Below are positions 9,155 to 58,989 of a DNA stretch of 64,000 bases, one piece after another (the stretch's first letter is position 1; each line of letters opens with the position of its first letter). The position numbers and the translations under genes were made by a program. This DNA is from Atriophallophorus winterbourni (lineage: Eukaryota; Platyhelminthes; Trematoda; Plagiorchiida; Microphallidae), in assembly GCA_013407085.1 (NCBI GenBank), contig JACCGJ010013253.1, positions 1-64,000 on the forward strand. Direction: 5' to 3'. The notes beneath the pieces are model-generated. The model was not told the DNA's origin and made no database searches. It worked only from the letters and a program-made list of their open reading frames with translations.

Positions 9155-9227
9155 CACTACATAATTGGTGAGCCCGACGACCACTACTTAATTGGTGAGC
9201 CCGAGCACTACCTAATTGGTGAGCCCG
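9155..9227 (+). promoter_or_regulatory. Triplicated primer-binding-site-like motif of Gypsy 1
   Basis: The motif AATTGGTGAGCCCG occurs at 9,163-9,176, 9,190-9,203 and 9,214-9,227, each preceded by a CACTAC-like lead. TGGTGAGCCCGA in front of a Gypsy gag has the position and form expected for a tRNA primer-binding site just inside the 5' LTR; CsRn1-type elements use tRNA-Trp, and this fits that only with mismatches. A single copy is expected. Confidence 0.5.
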
Positions 9228-9280
9228 TATTCCATTTTTTCGCTCAGAACTCCCGTTATTTTCTCAATTTTGCTATAATG

Positions 9281-10780: not shown

Positions 10781-11431
10781 ATTCGTATTTGTAAAACTTT
10801 TGGCTTATATTTTGGAATACTCACTTAACACCCCACCATGAACGATTTTTCCATAAGTAAAGTTTCCACAATCCTACAATCACAACATATTCCATGCGCA
10901 TTACCGACTTTAGACTTGGTTCGGCCAAATTGAATCTATTTTTCGTATATATGGCATCACCGATGAATCTATTATGTATTCTCATGTGGTGACTTTGCTC
11001 CCTCTCGACGTAGCTGAACAAGTCAGTGATCTTATTTATGCTATGCCTGAGATCAAGCCATACGAAAAGCTCAAATCCACACTAATAGACCGAATCGGTT
11101 TTTCTGAGCAAGAGAAGCTCGACGTCCTTTTTTCCAAAATGGCTCTTGGTGATAAAAAGCCATCTCAGCTTCTTCGCCAGATGAAAAAGCTACTTGGAGA
11201 CAAAAGGATTGAGGAGAGCATTTTAACACAGTTGTGGTTTAAAAACCTCTAAGCTGACATTTGCCAAGTGCTTGCTGGTTTGATTACTTACGTATCATTA
11301 GACGAACTAGCACAAGCGGCTGACAAAATGCTCGAAGCAAAAGAAGCCGACCAAATTACGGTTGATTCCGCACACATCAATTCGCCTGTCCATGTTCGGA
11401 ATTAAAAGAACAAGTCGTTGAACTAACTCTT
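10781..11431 (+). pseudogene. Gypsy 2 Gag remnant with stops and frameshifts
   Basis: After a short non-coding join, Gag-like sequence resumes from about 10,840. The best piece, 10,974-11,252, contains VAEQVSDLIYAMPEIKPYEK and LGDKKPSQLLRQMKKLLGD, which parallel VLDVLDPMPSISPYDTLKA and LGDRTPSQLLRHMRSLES of Gypsy 1. A stop follows at about 11,252, then VSLDELAQAADKMLEAKEAD in the same frame and a shift before the protease frame. It is decayed. Confidence 0.65.
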
Positions 11432-13306
11432 GTGGCGAACTCTCTTTCGTCAAAATCTCCCAACCCATCTCGCTCAAAATCTAAATCTCGACCATCGAAA
11501 ACCCCTGAGCGCATATGTTGGTACCACAAGAGATATGGGGATAAAGCCTCAAAATGCATCTCTCCGTGTTCAAAAACCGTCAATATCAAGGGTCAATCAG
11601 TAACGACGACTTCTGTTCCCGGCCTACCAAACCCGAGTTGCCTATTCTATGTTACAGACAAATCGAGTGGTCTGCGTTTTCTAGTCGATACTGGCGCTGA
11701 AAATAGCGTCATACCTCCAACATCCAGCACCTCCAAACCGTCGTCCTACACTCTTCAAGCGGCAAATGGCACTCGTATTAACACTTACGGCCAACGCCTG
11801 CTAACCCTCAACTTAGGACTAAGGCGCAGTTTTCCCTGGGTGTTTCTCATCGCGGAGTTTAATTGCCCAATAATCGGCATCGACTTTCTGTCTCACTTCG
11901 GTCTAACTGTCGAAGTAAAACAGCGGAGATTAGTAGATACGAAAACCTCTTTACAGGTGTCAGGTATCACTACTAAAGCCATTTCCTCCGGCATCAAAGC
12001 TGTCACTCCAGAAACTTCGACTTTTTGTGCTATACTGCATGAATTCCCATCCGTCATGCAGCCCCCAAGACCGACAGACAAAGTGACACACTCCGTGAAA
12101 CATCACATTGTCACTAGCGGACCACCGGTCTCCTTCAGACCTAGGCGACTTCACCCGTCGAAACTCAAGATCGCAAGAGCCGAATTTGAGCATATGCTAG
12201 AGCTTAGGATCATCCGTCCCTCTTCCAGCTCCTGGTCGTCACCACTTCATATGGTTCCCAAGAAGACCTCAGATGACTGGAGGCCATGTGGCGACTATCG
12301 TGCTCTCAACAATCGAACGGTCCCCGACAGATATCCGGTGCCACACATTCACGATTTCTCTTTGAATTTTTGTGCCACGACGATACTTATTAAGCTTGAT
12401 CTCGTCCGTGCTTATTATTACATCCCGGTAGCCGAGGAAGACATACCCAAAACGGCAGTCACAACTCCTTTCGGGTTATACGAATTCACTCGGATGCCAT
12501 TTGGCCTGAGAAACGCTGCACAAACTTTCCAACGTTTCATCGACGAAGTCCTGCGAGGCTTGCCGTTCGCCTACGCATACATCGACGACGTCTTGATTGC
12601 CAGCAACTCTCCAGAAGAGCATGTCGAACACATCCGTCTCGTTTTAGAGCGTTTCGTTAACTACGGGATAAAGATCAACCCAAGTAAATGCATTTTCGGC
12701 ACAGATTCACTGGACTTGCTCGGTCATCGCCTTACTTAATCTGGTATCACACCACTTCCCGAGAAATGTCAGGCGATTTCCGACTTTCCTGCCCCAACAA
12801 CGGTCACCCAGTTGCGCCGCTTTATCAGCATGATCAACTTTTACCGTCGCTTTATTCCGAACTGCGCAAAGATCATTGCACCGCTGACCGATTTGCTCGA
12901 CTCCAAATCAAAATCACTACAGCTTTGGTCAGAGGCACTTGAAGCTTTCGCCGCATCCAAAAAAGCTCTTTGCTGTGCTACAGAACTCTCATTCATTGAT
13001 CCGGAACCGACCTATTCTTTGTCATTGACGACGGATGCCTCCAATTCGGCTGTGGGAGCTGTTTTACAACAACACCACAAGAACACAGTCCGTCCACTGG
13101 CATTTTTCTCGCAAAAGCTTAATCCGGCACAAACTCGCTACAGCACATTTGGCCGTGAAATACTTGCGATATATTTGGCCATACGGCATTTCCGTCATTT
13201 ACTGGAAGGTCGTGACCTCATTATCTTTACGGATCACAAACCATTGACTTTTGCTCTGCAGTCTAAACTTGATGGTCATTCGCCACGCGAGATTCGCCAC
13301 TTAGAT
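11432..13306 (+). pseudogene. Gypsy 2 Gag knuckle-protease-RT-RNase H, one nonsense codon
   Basis: One frame runs from 11,432 to 13,306 with a single TAA at 12,737-12,739. In order: knuckle [18 protein letters not shown], protease [15 protein letters not shown] with [20 protein letters not shown] and catalytic YIDDVLIAS, then the connection (FISMINFYRRFIPNCAKIIA) and RNase H with TDASNSAVGAVLQQ and FTDHKPL. RNase H is then interrupted by a CR1 fragment. Gag-Pol of this family reverse-transcribes the element RNA. No integrase is seen. Confidence 0.8.
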
Positions 13307-13946
13307 ATTTGGATATTTGGACGTTTTTCCCCGAGGTGTTTTCCTCTCATGATGAACACATATATACACAGGCTTCTAGATTAAGCCGCACAAGCCTGGA
13401 CACCATGACTCCAAAAAGACATCTTACTCCTGGATCGCATATACCGGAGAGCTTCTAAGCTTGTCATTGGTCTCGAAAATATGTCATTCGCCAGGCGACT
13501 CAGACAACTGGAAATGAGTACACTGGCAAAAAAGGAGAATGCGAGGTGATCTCATCCTCGCATACAAAATACTAACTACTGTTTTCCACCCCTTGGATAT
13601 ATTATTCCACCTTCGAACTTCCAGCAACAGTCGTGGCCATGGTTGCAAGTTGGAAATACCACATTCCAAACGGAACTGCCGCAGGTATTTTTATTCCGTA
13701 CGTGTGTGCTTTGCTTGGAATTCCCTACCTTCCGATTTGGTAAGCTCAAACAGCTTATCTATATTCAAATCAAAACTTGACGATTATATGAGAGCTAATC
13801 CGAATTTTTCCCCAAACTATTGAATAAGCTATCATTGTCCCATTGATTTTGATTTTATTTATACTTATATATATACATTTGTACCTATATTTCCACCCTG
13901 TGGTTATTGTAAAGTTAATTGCTTTTTCAACCATAAATCTTGAATC
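13307..13946 (+). mobile_element. CR1-like 3' fragment inserted in Gypsy 2 RNase H
   Basis: The 640-bp insert is flanked by TAGAT at 13,302-13,306 and 13,947-13,951; removing it and one TAGAT restores the Gypsy frame. It encodes the decayed RT tail of a CR1-like element (RMRGDLILAYKILTTVFHPL, then IPHSKRNCRRYFYSVRVCFA and WNSLPSDLV), a stop near 13,822, and a 3' UTR with TGTGGTTATTGTAAAG and a short TTGAATC tail. The same subfamily lies at 49.16-50.27 kb. It is a typical 5'-truncated LINE insertion. Confidence 0.85.
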
Positions 13947-13951
13947 TAGAT

Positions 13952-14216
13952 TACATCTCTCAGTTCTCTACCGATATTCGTTACATCAAAGGAGATGCTA
14001 ACTTGGTTGCCGATGCTTTATCAAGACCTGACATTTCTGTTTTGTCTGCAGGCACACCATCTGATCTCTCCCTTTTGACTAACCATCAAGCCGAGATTGA
14101 TAAAACCGAACTCGCGAAGTGTCGATCCATGGATTTGCAGCAAATTCAGTTACCAAACGCCGATGCACCTGCGATACAGTTTCTTACCGCGTCTGACTGT
14201 TCGTTGGGGAGTGCAT
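13952..14216 (+). pseudogene. Gypsy 2 RNase H end and pol linker, after the LINE insertion
   Basis: The frame resumes with YISQFSTDIRYIKGDANLVA and DALSRPDISVL, the characteristic end of Gypsy RNase H. It continues to about 14,215 and then enters minus-strand PLE sequence, so integrase is missing. Confidence 0.75.
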
Positions 14217-14843
14217 TTGATGATCCCTCAATACAGGGGATAAGATCCTCAGCATTCATAAAGCTCTTACTTATGCAGAAATTCAAGCCCTTCTCCAACA
14301 ATCTTTGTTCAGCTTGCGAAAGTTGTCGATTACATAAATTCAAAACATTAGAATACTGGTTGCTAGATAATGACTTATTAGATTTAACTGAAGAACGTTA
14401 ATTATAAAACTCGAATAACTTGTTGAACTTACGGTCTTGTATTTCTCCTATTCGCTCCGTTTGTGTGGTTAAAACCTCTGCGTGTTTTCCACAAATTTTG
14501 TGGAAATCTGCTCCGGAAAATTCAAAGCGCAGTTTCGACATCATTTTAGAATCTTTCGATCGAGCGGCCAATACGGTTTCATTGACCCGGTGGATCCTTT
14601 GTTTTAAAACACTTTAATGCACTCGCGGCAGCCTTTGTAGAATTGCGGTATTATCCGGAGGTTTTACCACCAGATCCCTTGGTATTACACCGCACTGCTT
14701 GCAACGAAGGTTGAAGATGCGGTGGATCACCCATCTGGCTTCATATTCCGCTGTTCTCACCAACTCACTGGTCAATTTTTGAACACGGGGCTCGTAGGAG
14801 TCAGCAATCAATTGGAATATGTTTCAGACCGATCGTGTATTCA
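14217..14843 (-). pseudogene. PLE N-terminal coding region (5' half of the split element)
   Basis: Minus-strand pieces include ARWVIHRIFNLRCKQCGVIP with RDLVVKPPDNT (14,811-14,614), KICGKHAEVLTTQTERIG (about 14,470), and NRQLSQAEQRLLEKGLNF (about 14,330), which look like the region ahead of the RT in PLEs. Stops and frameshifts are present. It ends at the Gypsy junction; its continuation is at about 9,000. Confidence 0.6.
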
Positions 14844-17046: not shown

Positions 17047-18413
17047 CGTAATGGATTCGCCGACCCAGAATTGGTCAGGTGCTCCACGTTTTTTGTCTCA
17101 GGTGCATTTGATTGACTTGGTAGCGAAGCCATTTCAGGAACAATACTGTTCGTGCGTTTTATGTCGTATACAGCCGGAAAACGAATTTTAGAAGGTGCAA
17201 ATTTTCGACATTGATACCACGCCTCGAGTATTCTATCCTTCATCTGATCTGTGCGGAATGATATTTTGAGAGGAGTAGGGTGATGCGTTTCTTTTTTCGG
17301 TATAAGGCGCATAACATGAGTCGTTATTATGTCATTTAAACCTAGGATCTCTTGTAAAACTCTCCATTCACTGCAATCGTGTTGCATACGTTTGCTGGAT
17401 TCTACTTCGTTCGAAATGGGTACACCATGAACTATAACAGCTCTGCGATTCATAGCCTCTTTTGCTAGTTCCGGATTATTACGACGAATTTGCCGTTCTT
17501 CCCAAGGAACGTCCGGAAATATTCGCACAGTCGATTTGTTTACAACTAAGAGGGATGAGGCGAGCAACATGTTTTCTACATCTGACATGAGCACTACACG
17601 CAGTAACCTGGGTGTGTTCGCACGAGGTGAGTTCGGGGGTCTAAACAATCGCGTCAGCGACGCTGGTGAGGCAGTGATGTCTAAGCTTCTGCAAAGGTCA
17701 TTCCATTGATTCCTATCATCTGCTTCGCGTTGCTTTAGCGATGGCGAAGTTGATTCGACAAGATTACTACAAATTACCGTTAGATCATCAATGTTTGTCT
17801 TTGGAGGAGTTTTAGTGTTCAAACTCTTCGGTCTAAGCCAATGCACATCCTTCGATATTTCAGAACTTTCATTCACTTGACTGTTGGTCAGATTCGCAGA
17901 CTCATCGGTCGTACCGAGCTGTTGGAAGGGGCCTTGGTCGATTTCTGAAGAAATCAGAGTTTCCGTAGTAGTTAGCGCTTCACTGTAACTCATGCGGTTA
18001 ATGTGATTAGGGACTGCGTTTAGAACTGGTTTCAGAGCTTTCTGACACGCAATTGTTTGGAAAGACTCTATCGTGTTTTCAAGCCGTTTAAGGTTCGCCT
18101 CTACAGCTAACATGCGTCTTTCCATAATTGAATCAGAGTTTTCGGATCTTGATAAATCACTAGTTACTTTCAATCTTCATGGATTACATATATAGCAAAT
18201 GCCTAGTAATTTCTCATTATTAATTAGGGTCACAGATTCAGGTGATGAATACTTTTCACAGTTCGCATGAATTGCAATTGAACACAAGTAACATTTAACT
18301 TCACGCGATCTGGGACTTACCAACTTTTGACAAAGTTTGCACTTCTTACAAACCTCGTCGTCAGGTCCGTTTAAGGTCACGTCGGGTCCGTTTAAGGTCA
18401 CGTTGTCAGTCAT
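17043..18413 (-). pseudogene. CR1-like ORF1 (Cys/His finger protein), one nonsense codon
   Basis: Frame starts MTDNVTLNG at 18,413 and is open to 17,043 except for TGA at 18,177-18,179, where copy 2 has TGC (Cys). N-terminal residues form a PHD-like array of Cys pairs and a His (CKKCKLCQKLV, CYLCSIAIHANCEKY, CYICNP), then a coiled-coil-like stretch (MLAVEANLKRLENTIESFQ) and a basic C-terminal region with FPDVPWEERQIRRNN. ORF1 proteins of the CR1 clade bind element RNA. Its TGA stop overlaps the ATG of ORF2 as ATGA. Confidence 0.75.
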
Positions 18414-19054
18414 CGTTACAATTTCGCGAGATCGAGTCGATGCCCTGAGCGAAGCGGTCGATTATCGATTGGTGTCTCTCGATGGAGTGCAAAGACGACT
18501 GGATGCGATGCAGTGCAATCCAACGGACAGTATAATGGCGTACACTTTCACGTAAAGGCTGTTCTGTGAGATTTGATCCGACAGTGTTTAAATAACTGTC
18601 AATAAATACCAAATAGCGAGATCTTCTTGATGGTATCCGAGTTGTTGCGTTATTATGGATCGGAAGCGATGTTGCACGCGTATGCAATGTTGGGTAGAAA
18701 CTGGAAGTTTTGATTTTGAGGAAGTTAAGACGAGTTCAATGATATAAGAACCGTCCAGATCCGTTGATAGAGCGAGCAATACGATCCAAAAATATGAGGG
18801 CACACATTTGTACGTCCACACCGTAGCCTGTATTTGATATTTCAATAATAAATAAATTTCTGTATCATTGGAAATCTTAAAGAAAATCACACATGTAAAG
18901 CATGCTAAACAGATTTATCTTACTTACGAGCAATATATGCCTAACATTGAATAACACATCTCAAACAAAAGATAATTTGCTTCAAAAGAATTCTTTTAGT
19001 TGCATGACGATGCTTTCGAAGCAAGAAAACATAACAGGAAATGATGCTTACATC

Positions 19055-19129
19055 AATGTAATGGAATATGTTTGTGACAGATCGGGGAATCATAATCATG
19101 AAAAAATAAAGTTTGTAATGTATCTGTGA
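19055..19129. other. Short spacer between CR1 copy 1 and the next PLE
   Basis: About 75 bp of unassigned AT-rich DNA between the shared CR1 5' end and the PLE pseudo-LTR end. Confidence 0.5.
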
Positions 19130-19138
19130 GAGTAGTTT

Positions 19139-19183
19139 ATTGGTAACGTTTCGCTTCTGACACAGAAACTTCGTCAGACCAAG
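19139..19183 (-). ncRNA. Hammerhead ribozyme in PLE pseudo-LTR
   Basis: Minus strand: helix I UUGGU with ACCAA; core CUGACGA; helix II GUUUCUG with CAGAAGC (one G-U); GAAAC; cleavage expected after GUU. All catalytic core bases are present, with the same extra A before helix II as the copy at 287-333. Confidence 0.7.
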
Positions 19184-19414
19184 GGTGTCAGTACGAACAG
19201 GGATCAAGCTTAAAATGCATTCACCTGACCAATCATAAGCTGGTTAAGAACTGCACAGTCCATGGTGGGTTCTGCGCTCGTTAAGAAGGACAAGCACGTT
19301 CAATATCAACTGACGCACCACCACCCCTACGTGCCGTATAATCCCTTAATAGTCTTGGCAGGTGTGAATGACATCTGGTGACAGATTAGCGCGATTGCGT
19401 AATCGGTGCGCACA

Positions 19415-20875
19415 CTAGAGGTTACACACGTTAATGTTTATCCGCTGCAGGACCGGACGCCATATTGTGGAGATATCAGCCCCATCCACCTTATTGACAG
19501 CATTCTTACCAGCCTTTGTTATCTCAACCGCATCAGCGTGAAGTCGTTCCATGTATGGTTTTATTCCCCGCCTTATCACTTCTACGTTATCAAGATCTGC
19601 GCTGTGACCGGTGTCCAGCACATGTTTAGCTAGTGCTGAATCTCTTATCAGTGTTTGATATTCACTGGAATTGCGTGGCTGCTTACCGATGCGATTTTTG
19701 TGGTCACTTATCCTAGTACTGAGTTCTCTGGATGTTCGTCCGATATATACTCCCGAGCAACCCTTACCGTTGATTTTATATACGCAATTCGTCGCGCAGC
19801 CTGAAGGTGTTTTATCCTTGAGATGCGTTAATAAGAAACGGAGCGTTCTATCCATTTTATACGTTACTCGTATACCTGCGTTATTCAAGGTTCGACTTAT
19901 CCCATTTGACGCTTCCTTAACGTAAGGTATAGAAACTGTTGCACGCCAAACTTTTTCCGTTTTGGTGCTGGGTATTTAACCCGTTTCAGTTGGCGTTTAA
20001 TTAGACTCTTAGAGTAACCATGCTCAGCAAGTCGACGAGTAACTTCTTGATGGGCTCGTTTTTTATCGGTGGCATTGCTGGACAAGCGTTCAACTTTGTA
20101 GAACAGCGATTTCGCAACTGAATTAAATATTTCTTGGGGGTGCGCTGATGAGTACCGCAAGACCGCATCTGTGTCAATTGGCTTACGATAGACCGTATTG
20201 CTTATTTTACCATTTTGCTTTCGCGCGAGACAGTCCAAGAATGGAAGTGTCCCTTCTGTCGACTCAATCTCCTTTCTAACTTGGATTTTGGGATCTAGGT
20301 TGTTAAGGTAACTATGGAATGCTTCCAATCTGTCGCGTTTCATGATGACGAATGTATCATCGACATAACGCCACCATATCTTTGGCCGAAGAGCTACATT
20401 TTTTAGAGCTAACTCTTCAAAGTACTCCATGTACATATCCGCTAACACTGGGGAAATAGGTGAACCCATCGCTAAACCTTCCTTTTGCTTATATAACTGT
20501 CCGTTAAACAAGAAGTGGTTCATATTCAGACAAATCGCTATACCGTTAACGATTTGCTCTACACTCAAGTTTGTACGATCTGTCAATGTCGCGTGTGAAT
20601 TAAGTGCATTTTTTGCTAATTCTAGAGCGCTCGTGGTGTCCACGTTCGTGAACAAGGCGCTTACATCGAAGCTAACCATCATTTCATCCTCGTCGAGCGT
20701 TATTGTACTCAAACGACGAACGAAATCAAAAGAGTTCTTAATGAAAGAATCCCTGTTCCCTACTAGCGGTTTCAACAAATGAGCAAGATGCTTCGCTAAT
20801 TCGTGTGTTGGGGATCCAATGCCATCCACGATAGGTCGCAGAGGGACGCCCACCTTATGTATCTTCGGGAGCCCG
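19415..20875 (-). pseudogene. PLE reverse transcriptase plus GIY-YIG endonuclease, one frameshift
   Basis: RT motifs in order: VPLRPIVDGIGSP, MVSFDVSALFTNV, FNGQLYKQKEGLAMGSPISP, WWRYVDDTFVI with the catalytic YVDD, and FLDCLARKQNGKI. One missing A in the A-run near 19,961-19,965 shifts the frame; the other frame then continues through the Cys pair INGKGCSG and GVYIGRTSRELSTRISDHKN to the stop at 19,415. In PLEs this single polyprotein copies RNA and cuts the target. Apart from the frameshift and truncation it looks young. Confidence 0.8.
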
Positions 20876-21366
20876 TCGTACCGAGCTGTTGGAAGGGACC
20901 TTGGTGGATTTCTGGAGAAATCAGCGTTTCCGTAGTAGTTAGCGCTTCCCTGTAACTCTTGCGGTTAATGTGGTTAGGGACTGCGTTTAGAACTGGTCTC
21001 AGCAATTGTTTGGAAAGATTCTATCGTGTTTTCAAGCCGTTTAAGGTTCGCCTCTACAGCTAACATGCGTCTTTCCATAATTGAATCAGAGTTTTCGGAT
21101 CTTGATAAATCACTAGTTACTTTCAATCTGCATGGATTACATATATAGCAAATGCTTGGTAATTTCTCATTATTAATTAGAATCACAGATTCAGGTGATA
21201 AATACTTTTCACAGTTCGCATGAATTGCAATTGAACACAAGTAACATTTAACATGAGGCGAACTGAGACTTACGAACTTTTGACAAAGTTTGCACTTCCT
21301 ACAAGCCTCGTCGTCAGGTCCGTATCAGGTCACGTCAGGTCTGATTAAGGTCACGCTGTCAGTCAT
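20876..21366 (-). pseudogene. CR1-like ORF1 N-terminal part, broken
   Basis: Starts MTDSVTL at 21,366. It soon meets a TGA where copy 1 reads on, then encodes the Cys/His finger (CYLCSIAIHANCEKYL, CYICNPCRLK) including the Cys codon lost to a stop in copy 1. A deletion near 21,001 shifts the frame before the PLE junction. Confidence 0.7.
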
Positions 21367-22051
21367 CGTTACAATTTCGCGAGATCGAGTCGATACACTG
21401 AGCGAAGCGGTCGATTATCGATTGGTGTCTCTCGATGGAGTGCAAAGACGACTGGATGCGATGCAGTGCAATCCAACGGACAGTAAAATGGCGTACACTT
21501 TCACGTAAAGGCTGTTCTGTGAGATTTGATCCGACAGTGTTCAAATAACTGTCAGTAAATACCAAACAGCGAGATCTTCTTGATGGTATCCGAGTTGTTG
21601 CGTTATTATGGATCGGAAGCAATGTTGCACGCGCATGCAATGTTGGGTAGAAACTGGAAGTTTTGATTGTCAAGAATTCACGTTTCTCCGACTTGAAAAT
21701 AGCATATTATGAATGAGGAAGTTAAGACGAGTCCAATGATATAAGAACCGTTAGGTCCGTCAATAGAGCGAGCAATAAGATCCAAAAATATGAGAGCACA
21801 CATTTGTACGTCCACACCGTAGCCTGTATTTGATATTTCAATAATAAATAAATTTCTGTATCATTGGAAATCTTAAAGAAAATCACACATGTAAAGCATG
21901 CTAAACAGATTTATCTTACTTACGAGCAATATATGCCTAACATTGAATAACACATCTCAAACAAAAGATAATTTGCTTCAAAAGAATTCTTTTACTTGCA
22001 TGACGATGCTTTCGAAGCAAGAAAACATAACAGGAAATGATGCTTACATCA
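20876..22051 (-). mobile_element. CR1-like retrotransposon copy 2, 5' part only
   Basis: Nearly identical to 17,920-19,054, except for a 47-bp extra segment near 21,667-21,714 and a short deletion near 21,001. It holds the 5' UTR and the first part of ORF1 and then joins PLE RT sequence at 20,876. Confidence 0.8.
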
Positions 22052-22303: not shown

Positions 22304-23338
22304 ATAATGACCAAATCAAGATCAACTATGCACTCTGCATCAGAGAATAATAACTAGTAGGTTGAATATAGCATTGTGTGAATCTACAAAACAATTCATA
22401 CATCTGCAGCATTGAGGCAGCCACATAAACTCAAGTACGTTATACACCTATTGAAATCGAAAAGCTTATCCGAAGCAGTTTAAAAGGATTATGGTTTGAC
22501 ACTACCTCCAAATGTTGGGATTTTTCACAAAATTTAATTAATTGCAATATGTTCAAGGTCGATTGGGTAGCCAGAATGAAATGAGGTTTGTATGAAATCA
22601 GTAATCAGACTTTGAATAAAGTTTCGTTTCGTCTGATTAATGGTAGTACCCGTTACAGGGAATATGACTATATAACATACCGTCCACCAGCTCTGTTTAG
22701 GTCTTGCATTAAAAAATCCAAAACGGATAATGGGGCTCAGTAAACAGTTCAAAACCTGAAATTTACGAGATCAAACTAGAAAATATTTCAAAGGTAACCT
22801 TGGATCATCTCTCATGGGACCATAGAGTACAACTTAAATAAATTTAAATCGGAAACATGAGGTCGGTGAAATTCGTGCAAAATGTAAGCAAAAATTCTTC
22901 AATCGAAATGGACCTATGAAAATTTTATATTTACTGCATATTTATTATGACAATATGCGAATAATCAATGATCATTAATGTAATGATAAAATTCATATAA
23001 GTCTTTAAGGCTATTGTTGCATTAAATATATGTCTTTACGGGTAAACGATTGCGCACACCAAGTGATTTCGGCAAAACATAAGGTGGAACCTTTAAAGAA
23101 ATTAGAATTTATTCAAGGAACAATTAAGTTAGCTATTAAAAGACCCATGAGCGAGCATGATATATTTGGCAACTAGAAATAAAAACCAATTAACCCATAC
23201 TAATATTTCATATTTCCCAAATTGTTTATCATTTGAGATGAATTTTTAGCACCATGTTTCGTAATTTCTCATTAACAGGAATAATTTGAGGCATGTTATG
23301 GTGTATGGTTTAGAACGGTCACAAATGTATCAGATTAA

Positions 23339-23581
23339 CTAATTAATTGCTTTTCTGTTTAACGAAAATCTTTGATGACCAAAATTGATAGTTTCAATAG
23401 CTTTTTTGTGAGATGACGATAGAAGGTAAGAGCAGGAATCTTTCTTCCGGTTTTCGGGCTTATCCGTTTCGGTTGTTGCATCCCAGAAAGGCCTTAATTC
23501 ATCAGGTATCGTCAAATGAATCTGTAGTAGTTTCCGGTAGATCACAGCTATTGAATATTTTGTATTGCTATATACTTGCAT
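23339..23581 (-). other. 80-codon open frame in the left arm, frameshifted in the right arm
   Basis: Encodes a natural-looking stretch (TIPDELRPFWDATTETDKPE) open to the stop; the right-arm copy at 27,114 loses one base after DEL and changes frame. It could be an exon or a relic. I recognise no family. Confidence 0.25.
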
Positions 23582-24339
23582 GCAATGGTTGATCTACGGT
23601 AATGCTAAATTCAGCGCAAAATCTTACTCATTCGCCTTCATCAGTACTTTTTATTCAATAAACATTGACAAAGAAGAAACAAATTGCATACAACCCTTTT
23701 GAAAAAAACACAAATTGCGCCTACTTCACAATCGCCGATAAAAACAAAATCTGAGCTGGTTTCACATAGCATATAGTAATTAAAATGTTCGAAATTCTTG
23801 AGATGCAATGATTTTGTTCCTCAAATCAAACAAAAATTGATTGTGCGAGTAGATCATCATGATAGCGTTGGCAGTCATTCCAGTGACACTGATAGCTTAC
23901 CGATCCCCAGTCCTTAGTCGGCGTCTTTCTGATATCTAATTAACCAACATCAGCAATCCTCTTCGTCAAAATGTGACATAATTCTGGTGAACATCAGCAA
24001 TCACGAAAAAATGAACTTACTTGAATCATTTATGTGATAAAATTGCAGCATGCTTTTTCCTTGCAACTGGCAAAAACTTCGTCTTCAATGCAATGACAGA
24101 TTGCGCAAAATTCAACTTTCGCGTTTTTGATGGGGAATTACTTGCCAGCCGCATACAAGGTCTGAAACAATACGATGAAAGAGAAAAAGAAAAACAAATT
24201 TCTGCGTTTTAATATCATCAAAGTAGACAATATGCGAATAATGAATAATGAATAATCATTAAGGTAATGCTAAAATTGAAACAAGTCTTTAAGGCTATTG
24301 TTGCATTAAACGTATGTCTTTACGGGTAAACTATTGTCT

Positions 24340-24342
24340 ACA

Positions 24343-24388
<46 letters not shown>

Positions 24389-24840: not shown

Positions 24841-24889
24841 TTCGGATTTGCCACAATCCAGTAGCTCACACCAGAATTCTTTTGATAAT

Positions 24890-25242
24890 TTCAAGTTCAG
24901 AAAAAATCGTATTCTCCTGAATCTATGCTGTGCTTCATAGCTTAAGTTAATGAGTTTACAGCGATTCCACAAAGCATCCAGTATGAACCACGACATTAAT
25001 TAAAATAGAACTAGTGATCAAGTTATCGGACGACAGTTTAATGGACATTTACATTCGACGACCTCGTAGATCGGACTAATCAGGACAATTTTCCAAGTTT
25101 CCGGCACGAAGTTCTGTTCAAACATTATCTTGTACACGTCAGATGTCGGTATATAAATTCTATTTAGGGTGACCCTGTTTTTCATTGTTTTTTCCACCTT
25201 GTGAAGAAATAGCAGGCTGCGGCTATGTCCATGTGTTGACAA
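24890..25242 (-). pseudogene. CR1-like RT fragment, left arm
   Basis: Minus strand reads VPETWKIVLISPIYEVVE, then CPLNCRPIT, a stop, and MSWFILDALWNRCKLINL with YEAQHRFRRIRF. These are the CR1 RT blocks equivalent to ANDWKCGLITPIYKGG, SNYRPVT and AQHGFRTRHS of the element at 56-57 kb. Its mirror copy is in the right arm. Confidence 0.7.
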
Positions 25243-25470
25243 CTTGGAGATTACTGATGCAAATTTTTCTCGAAGAACTTTTGTACAATCTTTAAATGAT
25301 GTAACTATACCATGCGAATCGAAGTTCTTGTCTACTCGCTACTTTATAAGTAGCTGAAGGGACTAAACTAAGCCCCAACTGATCGAACGGCGTATTGCCG
25401 CGAGGGTTATTACAACCCCAGGATAGTTCGAAGTAGAATACCATTCCGAAACGCTAAAATCTCACCGGAA

Positions 25471-25513
25471 GCACAGGACCGGTTTCGAGGTTTTTGCCTC
25501 TCATCAGCTATGC
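25471..25513 (-). ncRNA. Hammerhead ribozyme, repeat unit 1
   Basis: Minus strand: helix I GCAUAG pairs with CUGUGC (six pairs, one G-U); core CUGAUGA; helix II GAGG with CCUC, loop CAAAAA; GAAA; helix III from the self-complementary ACCGGU; cleavage expected after GUC. Every core base of a type I hammerhead is present. The tiny helix III suggests that a dimeric transcript would cut best, which a tandem repeat supplies. Confidence 0.85.
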
Positions 25514-25727
25514 GTATCCGCTGGACTCTTCGCGTTTCGAACTAGTATTTGTGTAGACGGATGGCGTAATGTGAACTGAAGTTCTCGTCTACTCGCTACT
25601 TTATAAGTAGCTGAAGGGACTAAACTAAGCCCCAACTGATTGAACGGCGTATTGCCGCGAGGGTTATTACAACCCCAGGATAGTTCGAAGTAGAATACCG
25701 TTCCGAATCGCTCAAATCTCACCGGCT

Positions 25728-25770
25728 GCACAGGACCGGTTTCGAGGTTTTTGCTTCTCATCAGCCATGC
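25728..25770 (-). ncRNA. Hammerhead ribozyme, repeat unit 2
   Basis: Same fold 257 bp further on: helix I GCAUGG with CUGUGC (two G-U pairs), core CUGAUGA, helix II GAAG with CCUC (one A-C mismatch), GAAA, helix III ACCGGU, cleavage after GUC. Slightly weaker than unit 1. Confidence 0.8.
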
Positions 25771-25856
25771 GTATCCGCAGGACTCTTCGCGTTTCGAACT
25801 AGTATTTGTTTAGACAGATGGCGCAATGCGAGTCGAAGTTCTCGTCTACTCGCTAG

Positions 25857-28353
25857 CGCCAAATTGTCGACACATGGACTGTTCCTAAAATCTGGAAGCT
25901 GCAGCCTGCTAATTTTCCACGATTTGGAAAAAACAATGAAAAAACAGGTTCACCCTGGATAGAATTTTTATACCCCAATCTTTTGCATAATCCATCTTCA
26001 GAAGTGGCATAAACGACATCTGACGTGTACAAGATAATGTTTGAACAGAACTTCGTGCCGAAAACTTGGAAAATTGTACTGATTAGTCCGATCTACTAGG
26101 TCGTCGAATGCAAATGTCCATTAAACTGTCGTCCGATAACTTCATTACTAATTCTATCATAATTAATGTCGTGGTTCATACTGGATGCTTTGTGGAATCG
26201 CTATAAACTCATTAACTTAAGCTATGAAGCACAGCATAGATTCAGAAAAATACGATTTTTTCTGAACTTGAAATTATCAAAAGAATCCGAATATATATAT
26301 ATATATATATATTCATATGCTGTGGACAATTGTTTACCCCTAAAGACATACGTTTAATGCAACAATAGCCTTAAAGACTTGTTTCAATTTTAGCATTACC
26401 TTAATGATTATTCATTATTCATTATTCGCATATTGTCTACTTTGATGATATTAAAACGCAGAAATTTGTTTTTCTTTTTCTCTTTCATCGTATTGTTTCA
26501 GACCTTGTATGCGGCTGGCAAGTAATTCCCCATCAAAAACGCGAAAGTTGAATTTTGCGCAATCTGTCATTGCATTGAAGACGAAGTACTTGCCAGTTGC
26601 AAGGAAAAAGCATGCTGCAATTTTATCACATAAATGATTCAAGTAAGTTCATTTTTTCGTGATTGCTGATGTTCACCAGAATTATGTCACATTTTGACGA
26701 AGAGGATTGCTGCTGTTGGTTAATTAGATATCAGAAAGACGCCGGCTAAGGACTGGGGATAAGCTGTCAGTGTCACTGGAATGACTGCCAACGCTATCAT
26801 GATGATCTACTCGCACAATCAATTTTTGTTTGATTTGAGGAACAAAATCATTGCATCTCAAGAATTTCGAACATTTTAATTACTATATGCTATGTGAAAC
26901 CAGCTCAGATTTTGTTTTTATCGGCGATTGTGAAGTAGGCGCAATTTGTGTTTTTTTTCAAAAGGGTTGTATGCAATTTGTTTCTTCTTTGTCAATCTTT
27001 ATTGAATAAAAAGTACTGATGAAGGCGAATGAGTAAGATTTTGCGCTGAATTTAGCATTACCGTAGATCAACCATTGCATGCAAGTATATAGCAATACAA
27101 ATATTCAATAGCTGTGATCTACCGGAAACTACTACAGATTCATTTGACGATACCTGATGAATTAAGCCTTTCTGGGATGCAACAACCGAAACGGATAAGC
27201 CCGAAAACCGGAAGAAAGATTCCTGTTCTTACGTTCCATCGTCATCTCACAAAAAAGCTATTGAAACTATCAATTTTGGTCATCAAAGATTTTCGTTAAA
27301 CAGAAAAGCAATTAATTAGTTAATCTGATAAATTTGTGACCGTTCTAAACCATACACCAAAACATGCCTCAAATTATTCCTGTTAATGAGAAATTACGAA
27401 ACATGGTGCTGAAAATTCATCTCAAATGATAAACAATTTGGGAAATATGAAACATTAGTATGGGTTAATTGGTTTTTCTTTCTAGTTGCCAAATATGTCA
27501 TGCTCGCTCATGGGTCTTTTAATAGCTAACTTAATTGTTCCTTGAATAAATTCTAATTTCTTTAAGGGTTCCACCCTATGTTTTCCCGAAATCACTTGGT
27601 GTGCGCAATCGTTTACCCGTAAAGACATATATTTAATGCAACAATAGCCTTAAAGACTTATATGAATTTTATCATTACATTAATGATCATTGATTATTCG
27701 CATATTGTCATAATAAATATGCAGTAAATATAAAATTTCCATAGGGCCATTTCGATTGAAGAATTTTTGCTTACATTTTGCACGAATTTCACCGACCTCA
27801 TGTTTCCGATTTAAATTTATTTAAGTTGTACTCTATGGTCCCATGAGAGATGATCCAAGGTTACCTTTGAAATATTTTCTAGTTTGATCTCGTAAATTTC
27901 AGGTTTTGAACTGTTTACTGAGCCCCATTATCCGTTTTGGATTTTTTAATGCAAGACCTAAACAGAGCTGGTGGACGGTATGTTATATAGTCATATTCCC
28001 TGTAACGGGTACTACCATAAATCAGACGAAACGAAACTTTATTCAAAGTCTGATTACTGATTTCATACAAACCTCATTTCATTCTGGCTACCCAATCGAC
28101 CTTGAACATATTGCAATTAATTAATTTTTGTGAAAAATCCCAACATTTGGAGGTAGTTTCAAACCATAATCCTTGTAAACTGCTTCGGATAAGCTTTTTG
28201 ATTTTAAAAGGTATATAGCGTACTTGAGTTTATGTGGCTGCCTCAATGTTGCAGATGTATGAATTGTTTTGTAGATTCACACAATGCTATATTCAACCTA
28301 CTAGTTATTATTCTCTGATGCAGAGTGCATTGTTGATCTTGATTTGGTCATTT
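25857..28353 (-). repeat. Right arm of the large inverted repeat
   Basis: Reverse complement of the left arm. An AT run at 26,291-26,312 sits where the left arm has its insertion. The outer boundary is near 28,353, after which the sequences on the two sides are unrelated; I see no target duplication. Confidence 0.85.
25869..26260 (+). pseudogene. CR1-like RT fragment, right arm
   Basis: Mirror of 24,890-25,242. Plus strand shows MSWFILDALWNRYKLINL with YEAQHRFRKIRF and, upstream and more decayed, the ISPI-type block. The two fragments point away from the palindrome centre. Confidence 0.65.
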
Positions 28354-37400: not shown

Positions 37401-40400
37401 AGTTACTACACTATTTTTATTGTTTTACATTCAAAATATGTTTTGTGTCAATAGGTTTGACCTGCTTAATTCATAATAAAGGTTTATAGCTTGAAAGATT
37501 CGAAATATGTATTTTAATCGGTAAAAGCTACCGACAAATAATTTATTGATTGGGAGAACGAGAATATCCGACATTTGTGCCTCTATTTTTCATTCGTGGT
37601 ATTTTGTGGAAGACTATGGATGAATAATTTATTAAATAACAATGACGATATTTCGTCATTTTATCAATGAAATAACTATTCGGCATTTTCGAGTATGGAT
37701 TCAAAACACTTGAAATACGCTAAACCATTATTATCATTTTTGGCGTAAATTGTAGAAGTTTGAAGCACTTGAAATGGCTTTTAAGAAAAACATATTTTCA
37801 TGGATTCCTTTCAGATCGATAGCCGATATAACAATTTTCACAGTAAACTATCATACCTTTACCATCAAAAACACGGCCGTCGTTGTGATCTCCTACTTCA
37901 AAACTAAATATCATATCCGCCGGTTTGGAATGGTTCGGTTCCTCGATGAAATTCAGCTCTGCCGCATCAGACCATTTGTCGAGGGCTTTCTCAATCGTTT
38001 TTTTGGCATCATCCCATGAAATAGTTCTAGAGTTATTTGCTAACCTTGAAGGGATACACAAAAAATATTGGGCGTGATCAAAGTGAAAACTGGTACCGTA
38101 TTTCGAATCTACTATATTTATGTACATCCATTGTCTATATTGAACGAAGGAGTCCAACGACAACATTACCAATGTAACGTACGTCTTCTTGATAAAACCT
38201 TACTCAGAACAAACTTGGCATTTGTATTAACCCGAGCGAGTGAATTTGACTGTAACAAAATTCAACAATTATTGTCCTGATTTCGACACTAATATCAGTT
38301 TAGTTTTGTTTGATTGCAGATGTGTCCTATGATTAAATTCAAAGATGGCGTATAGACCAACAATGTTCAAAGCCTAATAGATTTAGACAAAATCGTACAT
38401 TTCCTGATGCGTAAGTGACGAAAGTGAATTCGTACAATGAAGCATTCAATCTTAAAACTTGAATTTTGGATCATAGATATGTGTGCTTCTTCATTGTGCC
38501 AGTTTGCAACGCATTTTTGTATAAAGCCATACGCCCACGCCATAACTCAAATCGAAAATTGCTAGATGGACATAATGTCGGCTATAAAAATATATAAATT
38601 ATTCCATCGTCGCTCATTATGTGATTTTAATCACTAAACCCAGAATTAGGCCGATTAAACCTGCATGCAGTTTTCTGGACATTGTGCTAATTCGAACGGA
38701 AAAAGGCCAGCATGTACTGTTGGTGTGTTTCGAAGGCTTTTCAGCGTATAAATGTTTCATTCGCATTCATGTTCTCCACAAATTGATTGCAAAGTGATGC
38801 TGCTAGCTGATATTTACATGACACAAATCCGCATTTGGTGAGTGATCTTTAAAGCGTTTTTCTTCTAGTTGTTTACTAATCGAAGAATATGTACAATCTA
38901 AGCGTTTTGTGGAGAATATGTTGTTTATGTTTGCGAATACTCAACCATGCCTACCCCATCGAAGTATTCACAAATTTGATAATGACATTTCGTAATTGTG
39001 ACACTGAACTCAAATTTCATTCCTCAATCCTCTGTGTATTAGAAAAATTGAAGAAGCACATACATTTATCTCTATGATGAATGATCGTCGAGGCACATAC
39101 CTGGTGCAAAATTTCAAACAATTCATAAAATCCACAAATTCAAAAGTACCCGGCAGTTATCAGTGAAACTACCGTTTTCTGTATAATTGATTCGACAAAG
39201 TTTGCACTCAAAATCACAGACCACAGCAAATTATAATCAACTTAAAACTACGATCAAATGAATAAGTTCTGATCAAATTCAAATTTTGTATTAGATCTTT
39301 TTGCTGAAACACCATAGCAATGCTCATTTAGTAGTTATTTATGATTCACTTTTAAAATAAAGTTTACATTTACCTCGAAGCCAACATTTTAAGTTAATGA
39401 TAACGTAAACAATACTGTTTTGTAATATTCCCCTGCTGATGACCAAATGTAGTCTAATCCAACTTCTCGGTTCGGGTTCAATGAAACATAAGCCGTCAAT
39501 TATGTTAAAATCTCACGAGGTTAAACATGGGTCGTTAAATATTCCGGTATTTTAGAATCAGGTTTAACGTAAAAGGATACTAGAAATTAGGAACGGCCCG
39601 ATTGAAAATCATCAACAGGTAACATTTAGTCATTGCTTAGAATAAAATAACATTATATAACAGTTAAATTGTTTGAAGATGATCGAATTAAATAAGTTGC
39701 AATTTTGAGATTTAATGAATCGAAAGAAATCAAGCTACACTACCTCCATATTAATGTCGAATTTTCCCATTTCTCGGCGGAACGTGGTTGTCTTCGCAAA
39801 AAAGATATTTTCGGAAAACGAATATCTGGATTTCCACATCTGCTTGCAGTCAAACCCTTGGCTGTCAAGCGGTCGATCTCACCGGTGACTGACAATCCGT
39901 ATTTCATTTGGGAACTTTTAATCGCTGCTTGCTTCACATCGAATGTCGTGTGTTCTTTCCGCTGCCGATTCGTTCGCTGCTGATATACATTGTCTCCTGG
40001 ATTGTAGAAGCTGAGTTTTTCAAGTGATTTCTAATATCGAGGAAAGAATTAGTTTAAAGTCATACTTGGAAATTCATTCTATATATTTGTTACTAATTAA
40101 ATGCGATTAATGATCACGGTGTTACGCATTCTTATGTTCCTTCCATATCGGTTTTCAAGAAATATTGAAGAGTACTCTTGCTTAAAAAAATTCGTTTTTT
40201 TACAAATGTTTAAATAACATTATTAACTGAAACAAGTAACTTTCAACTGAGAAACGTGTAATAGTATGAAGATCCTATTACAATTTTCAATCTCTTCGAC
40301 TCTCGCTACTGCCATCTCAGAGGTGATTCGATTCCTATGTTCAATATATTACATATCCAAATCATTCCGTGAATAAATTCTTCACACGACTACCACTCCG

Positions 40401-53698: not shown

Positions 53699-54292
53699 TT
53701 TGCAGTTAATTAAACAGTCCAGCTTATAAGTCTAATTTAGTGCGATTGCCTGTAGTTGCATTCGAATGCTTCCTAAGTCTACGTTTGTATATGAACACGT
53801 TGTGTTAAAAGCTGTTCGTTTCCGTCCTGATAGAATGGCGATTTGAAATCCGTCAGAGGCCATATTTACCAAGGATTGATTACTAACCAGATTGCACATT
53901 CAAGCTGCAGTTGATTCACTTCATTTCACTCCAATTCATTCCACTGCATTTCGGTGAACCAAAATATGCTGTGTGGCCAGATGAATACGAGCAAATTGGG
54001 ATTTATCGTGATTTTCCCATATTGGATCTACGCGTGCAACTCTGTTAATACTCTTCAAGTCCTCAAAGGGATTAACGTCATCGGAAAGATCTTATTCTTC
54101 GCCGTCGACTGGTCATACTTTCAACATCGTGCGATCAACTACCGAAGAGTATCACCGGATTAAATTCTGATTTTGCTCTTTTTCGTGAACACTGAATTTT
54201 TTGTCGCGCACACTATATTCATCATCGATCGCTCGACAGAGCCAATGCTTGTGCACAAACCACTGAACAGTGCTGCTCATAACCCTGACCGG
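53699..54292. other. Probable 5' region of the CR1-like element, boundary not fixed
   Basis: An open frame upstream of ORF1 (53,954-54,163) is unassigned. The element's 5' end lies somewhere here; there is no second copy in the window to fix it. Confidence 0.35.
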
Positions 54293-55543
54293 ATGACCCC
54301 GAAACGAAAACAAAGCGCACCGGGCTGCATGTGTGCGGTTTGCCGAAAGTCGGTAAGTCCTAAGGCAAAGTCTGTCACGTGTTACGATTGTTTGTCGAAA
54401 GTTCATGCTAAATGCGACAAATCGCTGACCTCGGATTTAGTATCGATTATTAATGGAGATAATTGCCCTGGTGTTTGTTATGTTTGTCTGGTTTGCAAGG
54501 CCAAATCAACACCGTCAGCCTCGGCGACGAAAACCCCTGAATATGATATTGAGACGCGTCTAAATAGAATGGAATCCAGTATACAAAAACTAAATGAACT
54601 GATAATAAACGTCATAAGGACACCATCGTTACCCGTCGTTACTGCCGAAGAGCCGGTAGATAATCCATCATACTCAACTTTACCACCAAACCTATCAATG
54701 GAAAAGGTTGAATTCTTGCAGCACAGCACCCAGCAGAGTGTTAAAAGCGTCTTAAAGCCGTAAACGTTCACATCGAAGGCCCCATTAGCGAAAGTTGTCT
54801 CGAAAGGAATTTCTCTTAGTGATATCTGCACCAACGTGCCAGAGTCGACTGAGACATCAGAATGATTTGGCTGAATGGTTGAAACTGTGCACTCGCATGA
54901 ATCTCAAAGCGATCCACCCGGTTTCGTTGATTCGCTTGAGTCGTCCTCCCAAGATAAGCCGCGGTTGCTCAAGGTAGTAGTGCAAAATGAGAAGGACTTA
55001 GAAGTTGTAATTCTGTCGACATACTTGCTACGAGACGGCATGGAAAATACATCTCGTGTATTTGTTGATGTGCCCTGGTCGGAACGGGCAAAATCGCCAC
55101 CGAAAGGTAACCCAAATAAAGCAAACGATCGCAACAAGCGCACCCTTATTCTCCTAAATGTCCTAGAAGGTGCCACCGATTCAGATACAAAGTGTAAATC
55201 CAACCACGACCTACAACAGTGGAGATTTATCAGTAATGCTATCCAAACCACCAATGTAACGGTTATCGATACGTTCCGAATCCCAAAGTCATCGAATTAC
55301 GAAGGTAATGGTCCACGACCCCTTAAACTGACACTTTTGACCACCACTATGGTGAACACCGTGCCTAACAACTGGAAACAGTATCGATACAAAGTTCCAC
55401 GAGAGATCAAAATTGTCAGTAAACACCTGAAAACCTGCTCTATCGTGGAAGTTGCCGGACCTGTTGGTACTGAGCACAGTGATGCCGGGACTCCTGCTCC
55501 AAAAAACGGATGTCGACCGACTCTATCGGAGTCGGTGATGTAA
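54293..55543 (+). pseudogene. CR1-like ORF1, two compensating frame changes
   Basis: Starts MTPKRKQSAPG. The N-terminus has a PHD-like Cys/His array (CMCAVCRKSV, CYDCLSKVHAKCDK, CYVCLVCK), then a coiled-coil-like part (RLNRMESSIQKLNELI). The frame hits a stop at 54,763; homology moves to another frame (LAEWLKLCTRMNLKAIHPVS, 54,795-54,965) and back (KPRLLKVVVQNEKDLEVV, FVDVPWSERAKSP) to the stop at 55,543. ORF1 proteins chaperone element RNA. ORF2 begins 34 nt before its end. Confidence 0.75.
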
Positions 55544-58424
55544 TATACCCATTAACACGAGGCCCACCATCTTTGACACGTACTCAACTTACCTGCTCAA
55601 ATACTCATCATCCAACACTTTTATCAAGATCTACCATCAAATGTTTATACACCAACGCACAATGCTTGATAAATAAGTTACCCGAACTAATCGAGCTTCG
55701 TCAAAAATATTCACCACTCCTGATAGCCGTAACGGAAACTTGGTTCAATCAGCAATTAGTTGAGGAGGAAATTTCCATTCCAAACATGTTTCTTTTTCAT
55801 CGTACTCGAATGGATCGTGGAGGAGGAGGTGTTGCTATTTACTATGATCAACACCTCACGTTCAGAGAAATCACGGATAATGATTTGATACTGGAAGATA
55901 CACTTTGGTGTTCACTTGAATTAGCAACAGGTGAAAACTGTGTTGTTGGTGTGATTTACCGACCACCGTCAGTAGACGAAGCATACAATGCTAGTTTAAT
56001 TGAGAAAACTCAGCTGGTTGTTTCCAGATATCAAAACAACTTCCTGATCATAGGTGACTTCAATCTCCCGAATTTACTAATAAGCGAGATTCCACCGGTG
56101 AACTCTCTTGATCATCTCTTCTACAAAATGTTCAACGAAATTCCTTTATTCAACCACATCTCAAGCAGCACTCGCTTCAGAGGCACAAACACACCGTCCA
56201 TTCTCGATCTTGTTTTGACTAGCGAGGAAAATGTCATCGAGGATATCCGATATGAAGCACCTCTTGGAAAGAGTGATCATGTAGTCATTGTTTTCGACTA
56301 TATATCTGAAGCGATAAGAGCAAGTGATGCTCAGAAGTTGATAAGAAAAATCGATACGGTTGCATTATCAATGTCTCTTCAAGAAGTCACCGACTGGGCA
56401 CCGATTAGCACTGATTTCGAACAATGCTGGTCATCGATACTTCAGAAAATCAACCGAAAAATAGAACTCCACTCAAAATATGTTTCAAAACAACTGAAAA
56501 AAGGATTCAAATTCGTGATCCGGAGTCGAACACGGAAATGGATAAAGGTGAGAAACTGTGCGTGGAGAAGCCACATACTGCATTCAACACCTGAATCTTG
56601 GGAATCTTACCGTTTGTTGAGAAACAAAGTTACTAAACTTGTCCAGGAGGATAAAGAAAAGTATCAAATGAATCTGATGGATAAAATTGAACGAAATCCG
56701 AAGCTCCTCTTCCAGATCGTAAACAGAAAGGCCATGGTAAAGCCAGGTGTTTCCGCTTTACTTACTACGACTGGAACTACATCCACAGCTCTCGAAGCTG
56801 CTAACGAACTCGCTCAATTTTACTCTAGAGTGTTCTACCCTAACGAGCGCGTATCCTACGATATTCCTGCATTCAGATCGCAGAATACAATACACGAAAT
56901 CGTTGTGAAACCCGAGAGTGTCCTGGTAAAGCTACGCGGGTTAAATACAAAAAAATCCCCGGGTGCTGATGAAATAACACCATTCATCCTAAAGCAATGC
57001 GCCCATGCTCTATTCTCACCACTCTCTGACCTTTTCAACCTGTCCTTGAGTTGTAGCACGGTTGCTAATGACTGGAAATGTGGACTAATCACTCCGATAT
57101 ACAAAGGAGGGAACCGATCTGATGTGTCTAACTACAGACCAGTCACGTTGTTGCCAGTGGTCTCTAAAGTTCTCGAACGACTTGTGGCCGACGAACTTAT
57201 CAAACACTTGGAACAAAATAAGCTTCTTTCCATCGCACAGCACGGATTCAGGACAAGACACTCCTGTCTCACCAATCTTCTCATAACTCTTGATAATTGG
57301 ACTCGAGCCGTGGACGATGGATGCCCTATCCATGCTTGTTACTTGGACATGTCTAAAGCTTTTAATCGTGTTAACCACAGCATACTGCTACAAAAATTGG
57401 AGCAGCTCGGGGTATGCGGCAGACTATTGGCCTGGATAAAGGATACTTGACTGGTAGAGTTATAAGGGTTAGAGTTGATGGGGCACTATCCAGCCCAGTA
57501 GAAGTTACAAGTGGCGTACCTCAAGGCTCAGTCTTGGGGCCAATACTCTTCCTCGTGTACGCGAATGATATACCCGAAATCGTACGCAGAAAAATCATTT
57601 TATTTGCGGATGACATCAAAGTCTGGACTAGCATACGCACCATAGAAGATTGCCAAATTCTCCAAAAAGATCTCGAAGCACTTCATAATTGGTCCTTGCG
57701 GAACTGCTTACCATTCAACATCCAAAAATGTAAAATGTTGAACGTCGGTAAATCATTCGAATTCACATACTCTCTGGGATCTCAGCAACTTTCATGGGTT
57801 ACTGAAGAGAAAGACCTGGGCGTGTGGATTAGCAGTAACCTGAAGTCTTCACGGCACTGTTCTGTTGTATACAAAAAGTCCTGCCAAATCTTAGCATTGC
57901 TCAGAAGGATCTTTGGTCGTTTCTCAAAGCAGATACTCCCACGTATAATTAACACCTATATCAGACCAACAATGGAGTATGCTGTTCAAGCATGGTCCCC
58001 ATGGTTACAAAAGGACATGACCTTGCTGCAACGGGTATACCACCGCGCTACAAAACTGGTGACCGGGCTATACAACAGGCCATACGAGGAGCGGATTGCA
58101 ACACTAAACCTCTTTGACTTTTCGTACCGTCGTCTCAGGGGTGACTTGATCCTGCTTTTCAACATTCTGCATACAGTGGATCACCCACTTGAACACCTGT
58201 TTCATCGGCAAGAAGCACGTGGTAGCAGATCGCATGGATACAAGTTAATTATTCCACACTCCAGATCAAATTGTCGAAGGTTTTTCTTTGCTGTCAGAGT
58301 CTGTTTTCTATGGAACTCCCTGCCCCCACATATCATTTGCGCAACAAGCCTGAACATGTTCAAGGCTGAACTTGACAAGTATATGTTGACCAAACCCAAC
58401 CTTGCACCTGAATACACGTGCTGA
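55510..58424 (+). pseudogene. CR1-like ORF2: AP endonuclease and reverse transcriptase, one frameshift
   Basis: Endonuclease, about residues 35-260: CLYTNAQCLINKLPEL, LIAVTETWF, GGGGVAIYY, GVIYRPPSV, IIGDFNLPN, SILDLVLTS, SDHVVIVFDY. RT: LNTKKSPGADEITPFILKQC, ITPIYKGGNRSD, AQHGFRTRHSC, YLDMSKAFNRVNH; one missing T near 57,443 shifts the frame, then VTSGVPQGSVLGPILF, FADDIKVW and MEYAVQAWSPWLQKDM to the stop at 58,424. The enzyme nicks target DNA and reverse-transcribes the element RNA there. One lesion only, so recently active. Confidence 0.85.
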
Positions 58425-58989
58425 CTTTCCATGTGTATAAAACATTTGTGTTGTTTTTATGAATTCCCTATATTTTCAATCTGTGGTTATTGTAAAGTAT
58501 TTACTTTTTGGACCATTAGAACTTTGAATTACTTTGAATTACTTTGAATACTAATCCGAATGTTTCTAACTGAGAAATTCCGACAGCCGGACACCCATTT
58601 GAAGTGGTGGGTGCTTAAGCTTTGAGTAAAAACTAACTTGCATACGACATACTTTCGATACCACGTATGATATCTGCAACAACTTTTATAATAAGTGCAA
58701 AAATTGACAAGTAACGGTTTTCAAGAATAAATTAACACACTACATAAAATGAAATATACTTATTCTCCTCTAACTTCAAAAAACGCAGACAAACGCATTG
58801 TACTATTCCCTAGTTATATAAACGTTTGAGGTGATTCATTCAAAACGCAAGGCCAATGTTTTCGTGATAAGAAGACAAGCTACTCACATCCCACATCAAT
58901 ATGTATTTATAATCACTGTTGTTGGCCTCCTTCGGTTGATTGAGACAATGGACGTACATTACAACCGCGTGATCATTCATGCTGCACAG

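Follow-up and report, generated by a model that had tools for sequence, protein, structure and literature searches.

Metazoan non-LTR retrozymes are a published class of repeats (Cervera and de la Pena, 2020, PMC7229834; reviewed in PMC7761336). In the parts of the original description drawn on here, each unit carries a type I hammerhead ribozyme, measures ~150-450 bp (or, more narrowly stated, ~170-400 nt) and contains no protein frame, units occur as dimers to large multimers, GC content lies below 50% according to the text and below 45% according to a figure legend, and copies are dispersed, with target duplications of more than 4 bp when duplications are present. In axolotl retrozymes the ribozyme, HHR_Amex1, has a helix III of one base pair closed by a palindromic four-base cap, and its dimers cleave better (PMC7229834). 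Minimal type I hammerheads in tandem are also found in Penelope-like elements (PLEs), which have been proposed as retrozyme helpers (PMC7229834; PMC7761336). The 2020 review states that no conserved motif in the repeats indicates a helper, and leaves open both the helper enzyme and the start point on the RNA of animal retrozymes (PMC7761336). In another fluke, Schistosoma mansoni, the SMalpha repeats and W36.2 are hammerhead-bearing and SINE-like, with a repeat of 335 bp; their likeness to the element described below is one of description only, and the cited part of the source reports no fixed LINE-like start site for them (PMC8490949).

The element analysed here is, judged by its sequence, a new family within the class of metazoan non-LTR retrozymes. 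It was found in a 64-kb window of the Atriophallophorus winterbourni genome (the window being the whole stretch of DNA that we analysed), and the coordinates of its features are collected in Table 1. Tandem Repeats Finder identified the array as a repeat with a period of 257 bp, 2.1 copies and 93% matches, confirming the direct tandem repeat proposed in a sequence-only reading of this DNA, with a third, partial unit closing the array. Each 257-bp unit carries one type I hammerhead, the arrays analysed range from 1.1 to 18.25 units, and no open reading frame of at least 120 amino acids overlaps the window array, as expected both for the class and from that reading. The GC content of the unit, 48.2%, lies below the first published limit only. 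Copies are dispersed, with short target duplications at a minority of arrays. The proposal of a retrozyme-like, non-autonomous element is thus supported, and extends to a genome-wide family. Compared with the published description as cited here, the present family differs in that the 3' edge of its RNA is fixed at two internal sites resembling a LINE tail.

Table 1. Positions of the retrozyme array, its ribozymes and start sites, and of possible helper elements in the window.
Feature	Position	Strand	Remarks
Retrozyme array	25312..25855	-	Two full 257-bp units plus 30 bp; the ribozyme RNA is the minus strand
Hammerhead, unit 1	25454..25525	-	Core and helices intact; Rfam HH9, 42.5 bits, E 1.7e-7
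Hammerhead, unit 2	25711..25782	-	Helix II with A-C mismatch; Rfam, 33.7 bits, E 1.1e-4
Predicted self-cleavage sites	25476/25477 (unit 1), 25733/25734 (unit 2)	-	Between GGUC and CUGUGC; spacing 257 bases
Start site 1, left edge of window array	25312..25324	-	Unit 250-3, motif ATCGAAGT
Start site 2 motif	25425..25434 (unit 1), 25682-25691 (second copy)	-	ACTTCGAACT; edge elsewhere, unused in window array
PLE-like element	17908-22051	-	Frames flanked by direct repeats at 17908-19055 and 20875-22051 (91%); Pfam reverse transcriptase
CR1-like LINE, candidate helper family	54173..58549	+	Endonuclease and reverse transcriptase frames; Pfam RVT_1, Exo_endo_phos
LINE 3' tail	58521..58549	+	(ACTTTGAATT)n

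HH9 is the top-scoring Rfam model for the window hammerheads, both of type I and on the minus strand. Both score below 52, the Rfam gathering score for the hammerhead family, and a default Rfam scan therefore reports none. The sequence-only reading described both units as carrying a textbook type I hammerhead. This is accurate for unit 1, whereas helix II of unit 2 is GAAG/CCUC and a strict motif scan rejects it. As that reading stated, helix III consists of ACCGGU only; it has no proper loop. We take the cut position in both units from the known hammerhead core. The core pattern CTGATGA..GAAAC occurs four times in the window against 0.37 expected, and two of the four lie inside the array; the other two, at 23466-23505 and 27154-27192, lack helix II and probably arose by chance. 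In its minimal, palindrome-capped helix III the predicted window hammerhead resembles that of axolotl retrozymes, which have a different unit (~330 bp) and host (PMC7229834). Energy folding of the 72-nt motif gave a gain from pairing two copies of 1.8 kcal/mol for unit 1 and 9.0 kcal/mol for unit 2, with no dimer hammerhead seen in the paired folds and no dimer advantage for unit 1, so that the idea of a dimeric ribozyme rests on the published axolotl case. In circular form, the 257-nt minus-strand segment delimited by the two cuts folded at -79.8 kcal/mol, whereas 100 base-shuffled sequences averaged -62.9 kcal/mol (sd 5.3, lowest -77.8); for the plus strand of the unit the value was -66.6 kcal/mol.

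The window array lies close to the midpoint of a large inverted repeat, with arms at 22306-24372 and 26291-28352 (98%) that each contain one of the two chance-like core patterns, and inner arms at 24876-25224 and 25897-26286 (84%). Two other loci (L020 and L034) have the left junction of the window array together with the inner arms, and the insertion therefore predates copying of the block. Elsewhere in the window, frames at 9005-14401 resemble, by eye, a broken Gypsy-type LTR retrotransposon, and an exon-like frame with a matrixin (Peptidase_M10) domain lies on the minus strand at 37798-38172; a search with this host exon, aimed at the organism, returned no hit.

Searches of the genome (537 Mb in 15840 contigs) returned at least 211 matches with a first query (best 40 of 657 candidates scored) and at least 348 with a second (best 40 of 667), so that further copies of the unit, on which the retrozyme interpretation depended, are present. 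Many short copies stand apart from one another, and one array (L028) has 18 units. A 25-base exact pattern was sought in viral contigs and none was found.

We oriented the arrays so that the left edge corresponds to the 3' end of the ribozyme RNA. In this orientation the left edges of all 34 arrays with distinct left flanks fall within two narrow intervals of the unit, of 10 and 16 nt: site 1 at unit 250-3 (15 arrays) and site 2 at unit 105-120 (19 arrays), these edges being BLAST limits with a possible error of a few bases. The RNA ends near ACUUCGAUU at site 1 and near ACUUCGAA or ACUUUGAA at site 2. For 15 random point sets, the best pair of intervals captured at most 11 of 34 points. The other ends scatter, with the best two intervals of equal widths capturing 6 of 21 right ends. 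The limits of the sites were written down from the first 27 edges, and the sites and the test were picked post hoc except with respect to seven later edges: among ten left-hand pieces fetched later, three had no edge and the remaining seven all had theirs inside the sites. The hammerhead cut, between unit positions 161 and 162, coincides with neither site, and no edge lies there. Together, the junctions are strong evidence, at the level of sequence, for fixed internal start sites in this family.

Loci outside the 34 comprise short versions of other loci (L001-L008), the LINE loci (L054-L073), loci whose flanks duplicate those of counted arrays (L020 and L034, window copy; L022, L018; L031 and L032, L030; L035, L033; L043, L023), loci with the left edge past the piece or contig (L013, L016, L037, L038, L046, L047, L049, L051, L053, L076 and L077) and one that begins in a degenerate stretch (L012). 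Right ends initially numbered 22, reduced to 21 since L016 probably repeats L028; they exclude L020 and L034 as kin of the window copy, and that of L015 may run into a divergent unit.

Several arrays bear further marks of insertion. An inverted piece is present at the right end of 7 of 21 arrays (L011, L013, L014, L019, L021, L033 and L036/L037), resembling the 5' inversions of LINEs. BLAST placed the outer ends of these pieces at unit 254 (L013), 1 (L019), 251 (L021) and 113 (L014); for L011 and L037 it gave units 6 and 246, which, judged by eye and from the duplication, belong to site 1 as well, whereas the piece in L033, with its outer end at unit 16, falls outside the two sites. Exact target duplications of at least 7 nt (7-10 nt) flank 5 of 20 arrays (L010, L011, L014, L028 and L036), compared with 4 of 380 mispaired flanks, and at the remaining 15, among them the window array, any duplication is shorter than 7 nt. 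In L011, ~16 units are arranged as two opposite arrays within one duplication, atactgtcag. The side on which the inversions lie identifies the ribozyme strand as the template. Copying of a linear, ribozyme-cut monomer would place left edges near unit 162, where none is seen, and a ring or an uncut multimer is therefore needed. The junction pattern thus suggests that the ribozyme strand is copied by target-primed reverse transcription initiated at internal positions. By-eye comparison of the flanks of LINE and retrozyme insertions revealed no consensus.

Fifteen common variable sites sort the units into four haplotypes, A to D. All 15 lie within unit 252-116; the ribozyme-bearing half, 117-251, has none. 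Mean divergence among 135 units is 0.021 in the ribozyme half versus 0.059 in the other half, and the hammerhead core words are intact in 109 of the 135. Pairs of the subfamily folds form in ~95% of cells, with no pair showing three or more double changes. As the structures derive from the same sequences and no pair reaches that number, we make no claim from compensatory pairing and dropped it as structural support; when all 135 rows were folded together as a circular consensus, the resulting structure made no sense and was discarded. The A/B and C/D lineages are mixed in 9 of 20 arrays, while others are pure (17 B units in L028, for example). Within an array, units resemble one another more than expected at random (0.272 versus 0.407 when shuffled), and in L011 the same unit occurs three times, twice in adjacent positions and once in the opposite arm. 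The order of units is hardly shared between arrays (0.042 versus 0.053 in the control, and 0.044 in the opposite direction). Mixed arrays would not arise from a single ring and so count against it; we interpret them as the product of an enzyme that copies rings and switches from one ring to the next, with long mixed transcripts or an exchange of DNA at a later stage as other possible sources. Several arrays have nearly whole numbers of units (window 2.12; L017, 1.98; L023, 2.06; L030, 1.10; L040, 2.01; L044, 2.03), as if copying tended to stop at its own starting point.

Some SINEs carry the 3' tail of a partner LINE, which recruits the enzyme of that LINE. The retrozyme would likewise be a short parasite recruiting a LINE enzyme through a tail, whereas its likeness to a LINE covers ~10 bases and no further (8-9 of 10 matching) and is present at two places within the unit. 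The LINE in question, which we take to be CR1-like from its relatives rather than from a tree, encodes a protein nearest to those of the flukes Paragonimus westermani (69%) and Opisthorchis viverrini (63%), with birds at ~40%. The family is young and abundant (best 40 of 3378 candidates scored, all 99-100%). Its tail is at least ACTTTGAATTACTTTGAA at all 20 fetched loci, which include the window's own copy and two with a common flank (L059 and L069); other LINE copies in the sequences analysed carry different tails, for example (AATTG)n at 47201 and in L023 or ACCTTGAATT in L015. Among the 257 positions of the A and B subfamilies, sites 1 and 2 are the two highest plus-strand matches to the (ACTTTGAATT)n tail, each with 8 of 10 bases. 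Subfamily D matches at site 2 alone, with 9 of 10, and subfamily C shows no preference. Shuffled motifs equalled the match in 101 of 20000 cases with the tail phase fixed (p 0.005) and in 110 of 3000 with any phase allowed (p 0.04), and the whole 3' end of the LINE matched the retrozyme no better than shuffles did (98 of 300 and 62 of 300 as good).

The resemblance of site 1 to the tail is closer in A/B (TCGAAG) than in C/D (CTGAAG). Starts divide accordingly into 14 AB and 1 CD at site 1 and 9 AB and 10 CD at site 2 (Fisher p 0.008, unadjusted, with three rows resting on 39-50 bases). Counterexamples are L078 and the inverted pieces of L011 and L037, which begin at site 1 in CD form. The start-site motif ACTTYGAANT is not rare, with 5 occurrences in the window versus 2.6 expected; a copy of ACTTCGAACT at 49490 on the minus strand was rejected as a meaningful site, being chance-like within degenerate LINE coding sequence. 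The resemblance of the start sites to the LINE tail is suggestive, and only that, of the CR1-like LINE as the helper.

To account for the family, its ribozyme motif, the two fixed start sites with scatter at the opposite ends, the inversions, the occasional duplications and the mixed arrays, we infer the following course of cleavage, ring formation, priming, hopping and helper use. The hammerhead would cut minus-strand read-through transcripts, probably in paired form, into 257-nt RNAs, and by analogy with published retrozymes these may close into rings. The enzyme, a reverse transcriptase most likely supplied by the abundant CR1-like LINE, would start at either internal tail-like site, with nicked target DNA priming the copying. 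By circling the ring and hopping between RNAs, the enzyme could lay down 1 to 18 units, and some insertions would carry a 5' inversion and duplicate the target over a short length. We assign a probability of about 0.5 to the reading that a ring of retrozyme RNA is copied from the tail-like sites, most likely by the enzyme of a CR1-like LINE. That the retrozyme is a circular-RNA SINE with two LINE-tail mimics, which a CR1-like enzyme copies while hopping to lay down mixed arrays, is a tentative view that we hold at slightly worse than even odds.

The same retrozyme could instead obtain its enzyme from a PLE, with the start sites reflecting PLE priming or exposed loops of the RNA. The window does contain frames that we take, partly from the sequence-only reading, to be PLEs, with a reverse transcriptase recognised by Pfam, and insertions of PLEs too can adjoin inverted pieces. 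That reading named the window PLEs as candidate helpers and credited them with hammerheads of their own. With an Rfam cutoff of E 10, and likewise in a motif scan, no other convincing hammerhead was detected in the 64-kb window, PLEs included, and the start-site motif ACTTYGAANT is absent from the PLE stretch 17908-22051. Published hammerhead-bearing PLEs resemble the retrozyme in their tandem ribozymes (PMC7229834), whereas the retrozyme has no frame and the window PLEs have no detected hammerhead. A PLE helper, for all the proposals in the literature, is accordingly unsupported by the PLEs of this window, and we consider it improbable.

Nor do we favour, to much the same degree, the copying of linear multimers by some target-primed enzyme, with 3' ends placed at the two sites by processing or nicking and with neither a ring nor tail mimicry. 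Linear multimers would fit the 9 mixed arrays, and the LINE likeness that they dispense with is itself suggestive only; however, arrays share little unit order, and the conserved ribozyme would cleave such multimers. Far less credible is a conventional satellite that owes its spread to unequal crossing-over and exchange of DNA and carries the hammerhead incidentally. Long arrays such as that of 18 units, and the likeness of units within an array, are what a satellite would show, but the one-sided fixed edges, inversions and duplications are marks of insertion, many short copies stand apart, and the ribozyme half is the more conserved one.

We found no earlier report of the junction rule in the mainly open-access literature searched. 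The rule can be applied to any genome with retrozymes, by asking where the arrays start and whose tail matches. It would assign production of the RNA to the ribozyme and the initiation of copying to a different place on that RNA, as a circular template predicts. If the circular-RNA SINE reading is true, a helper would be named for animal retrozymes, and their arrays would be explained without unequal crossing-over.
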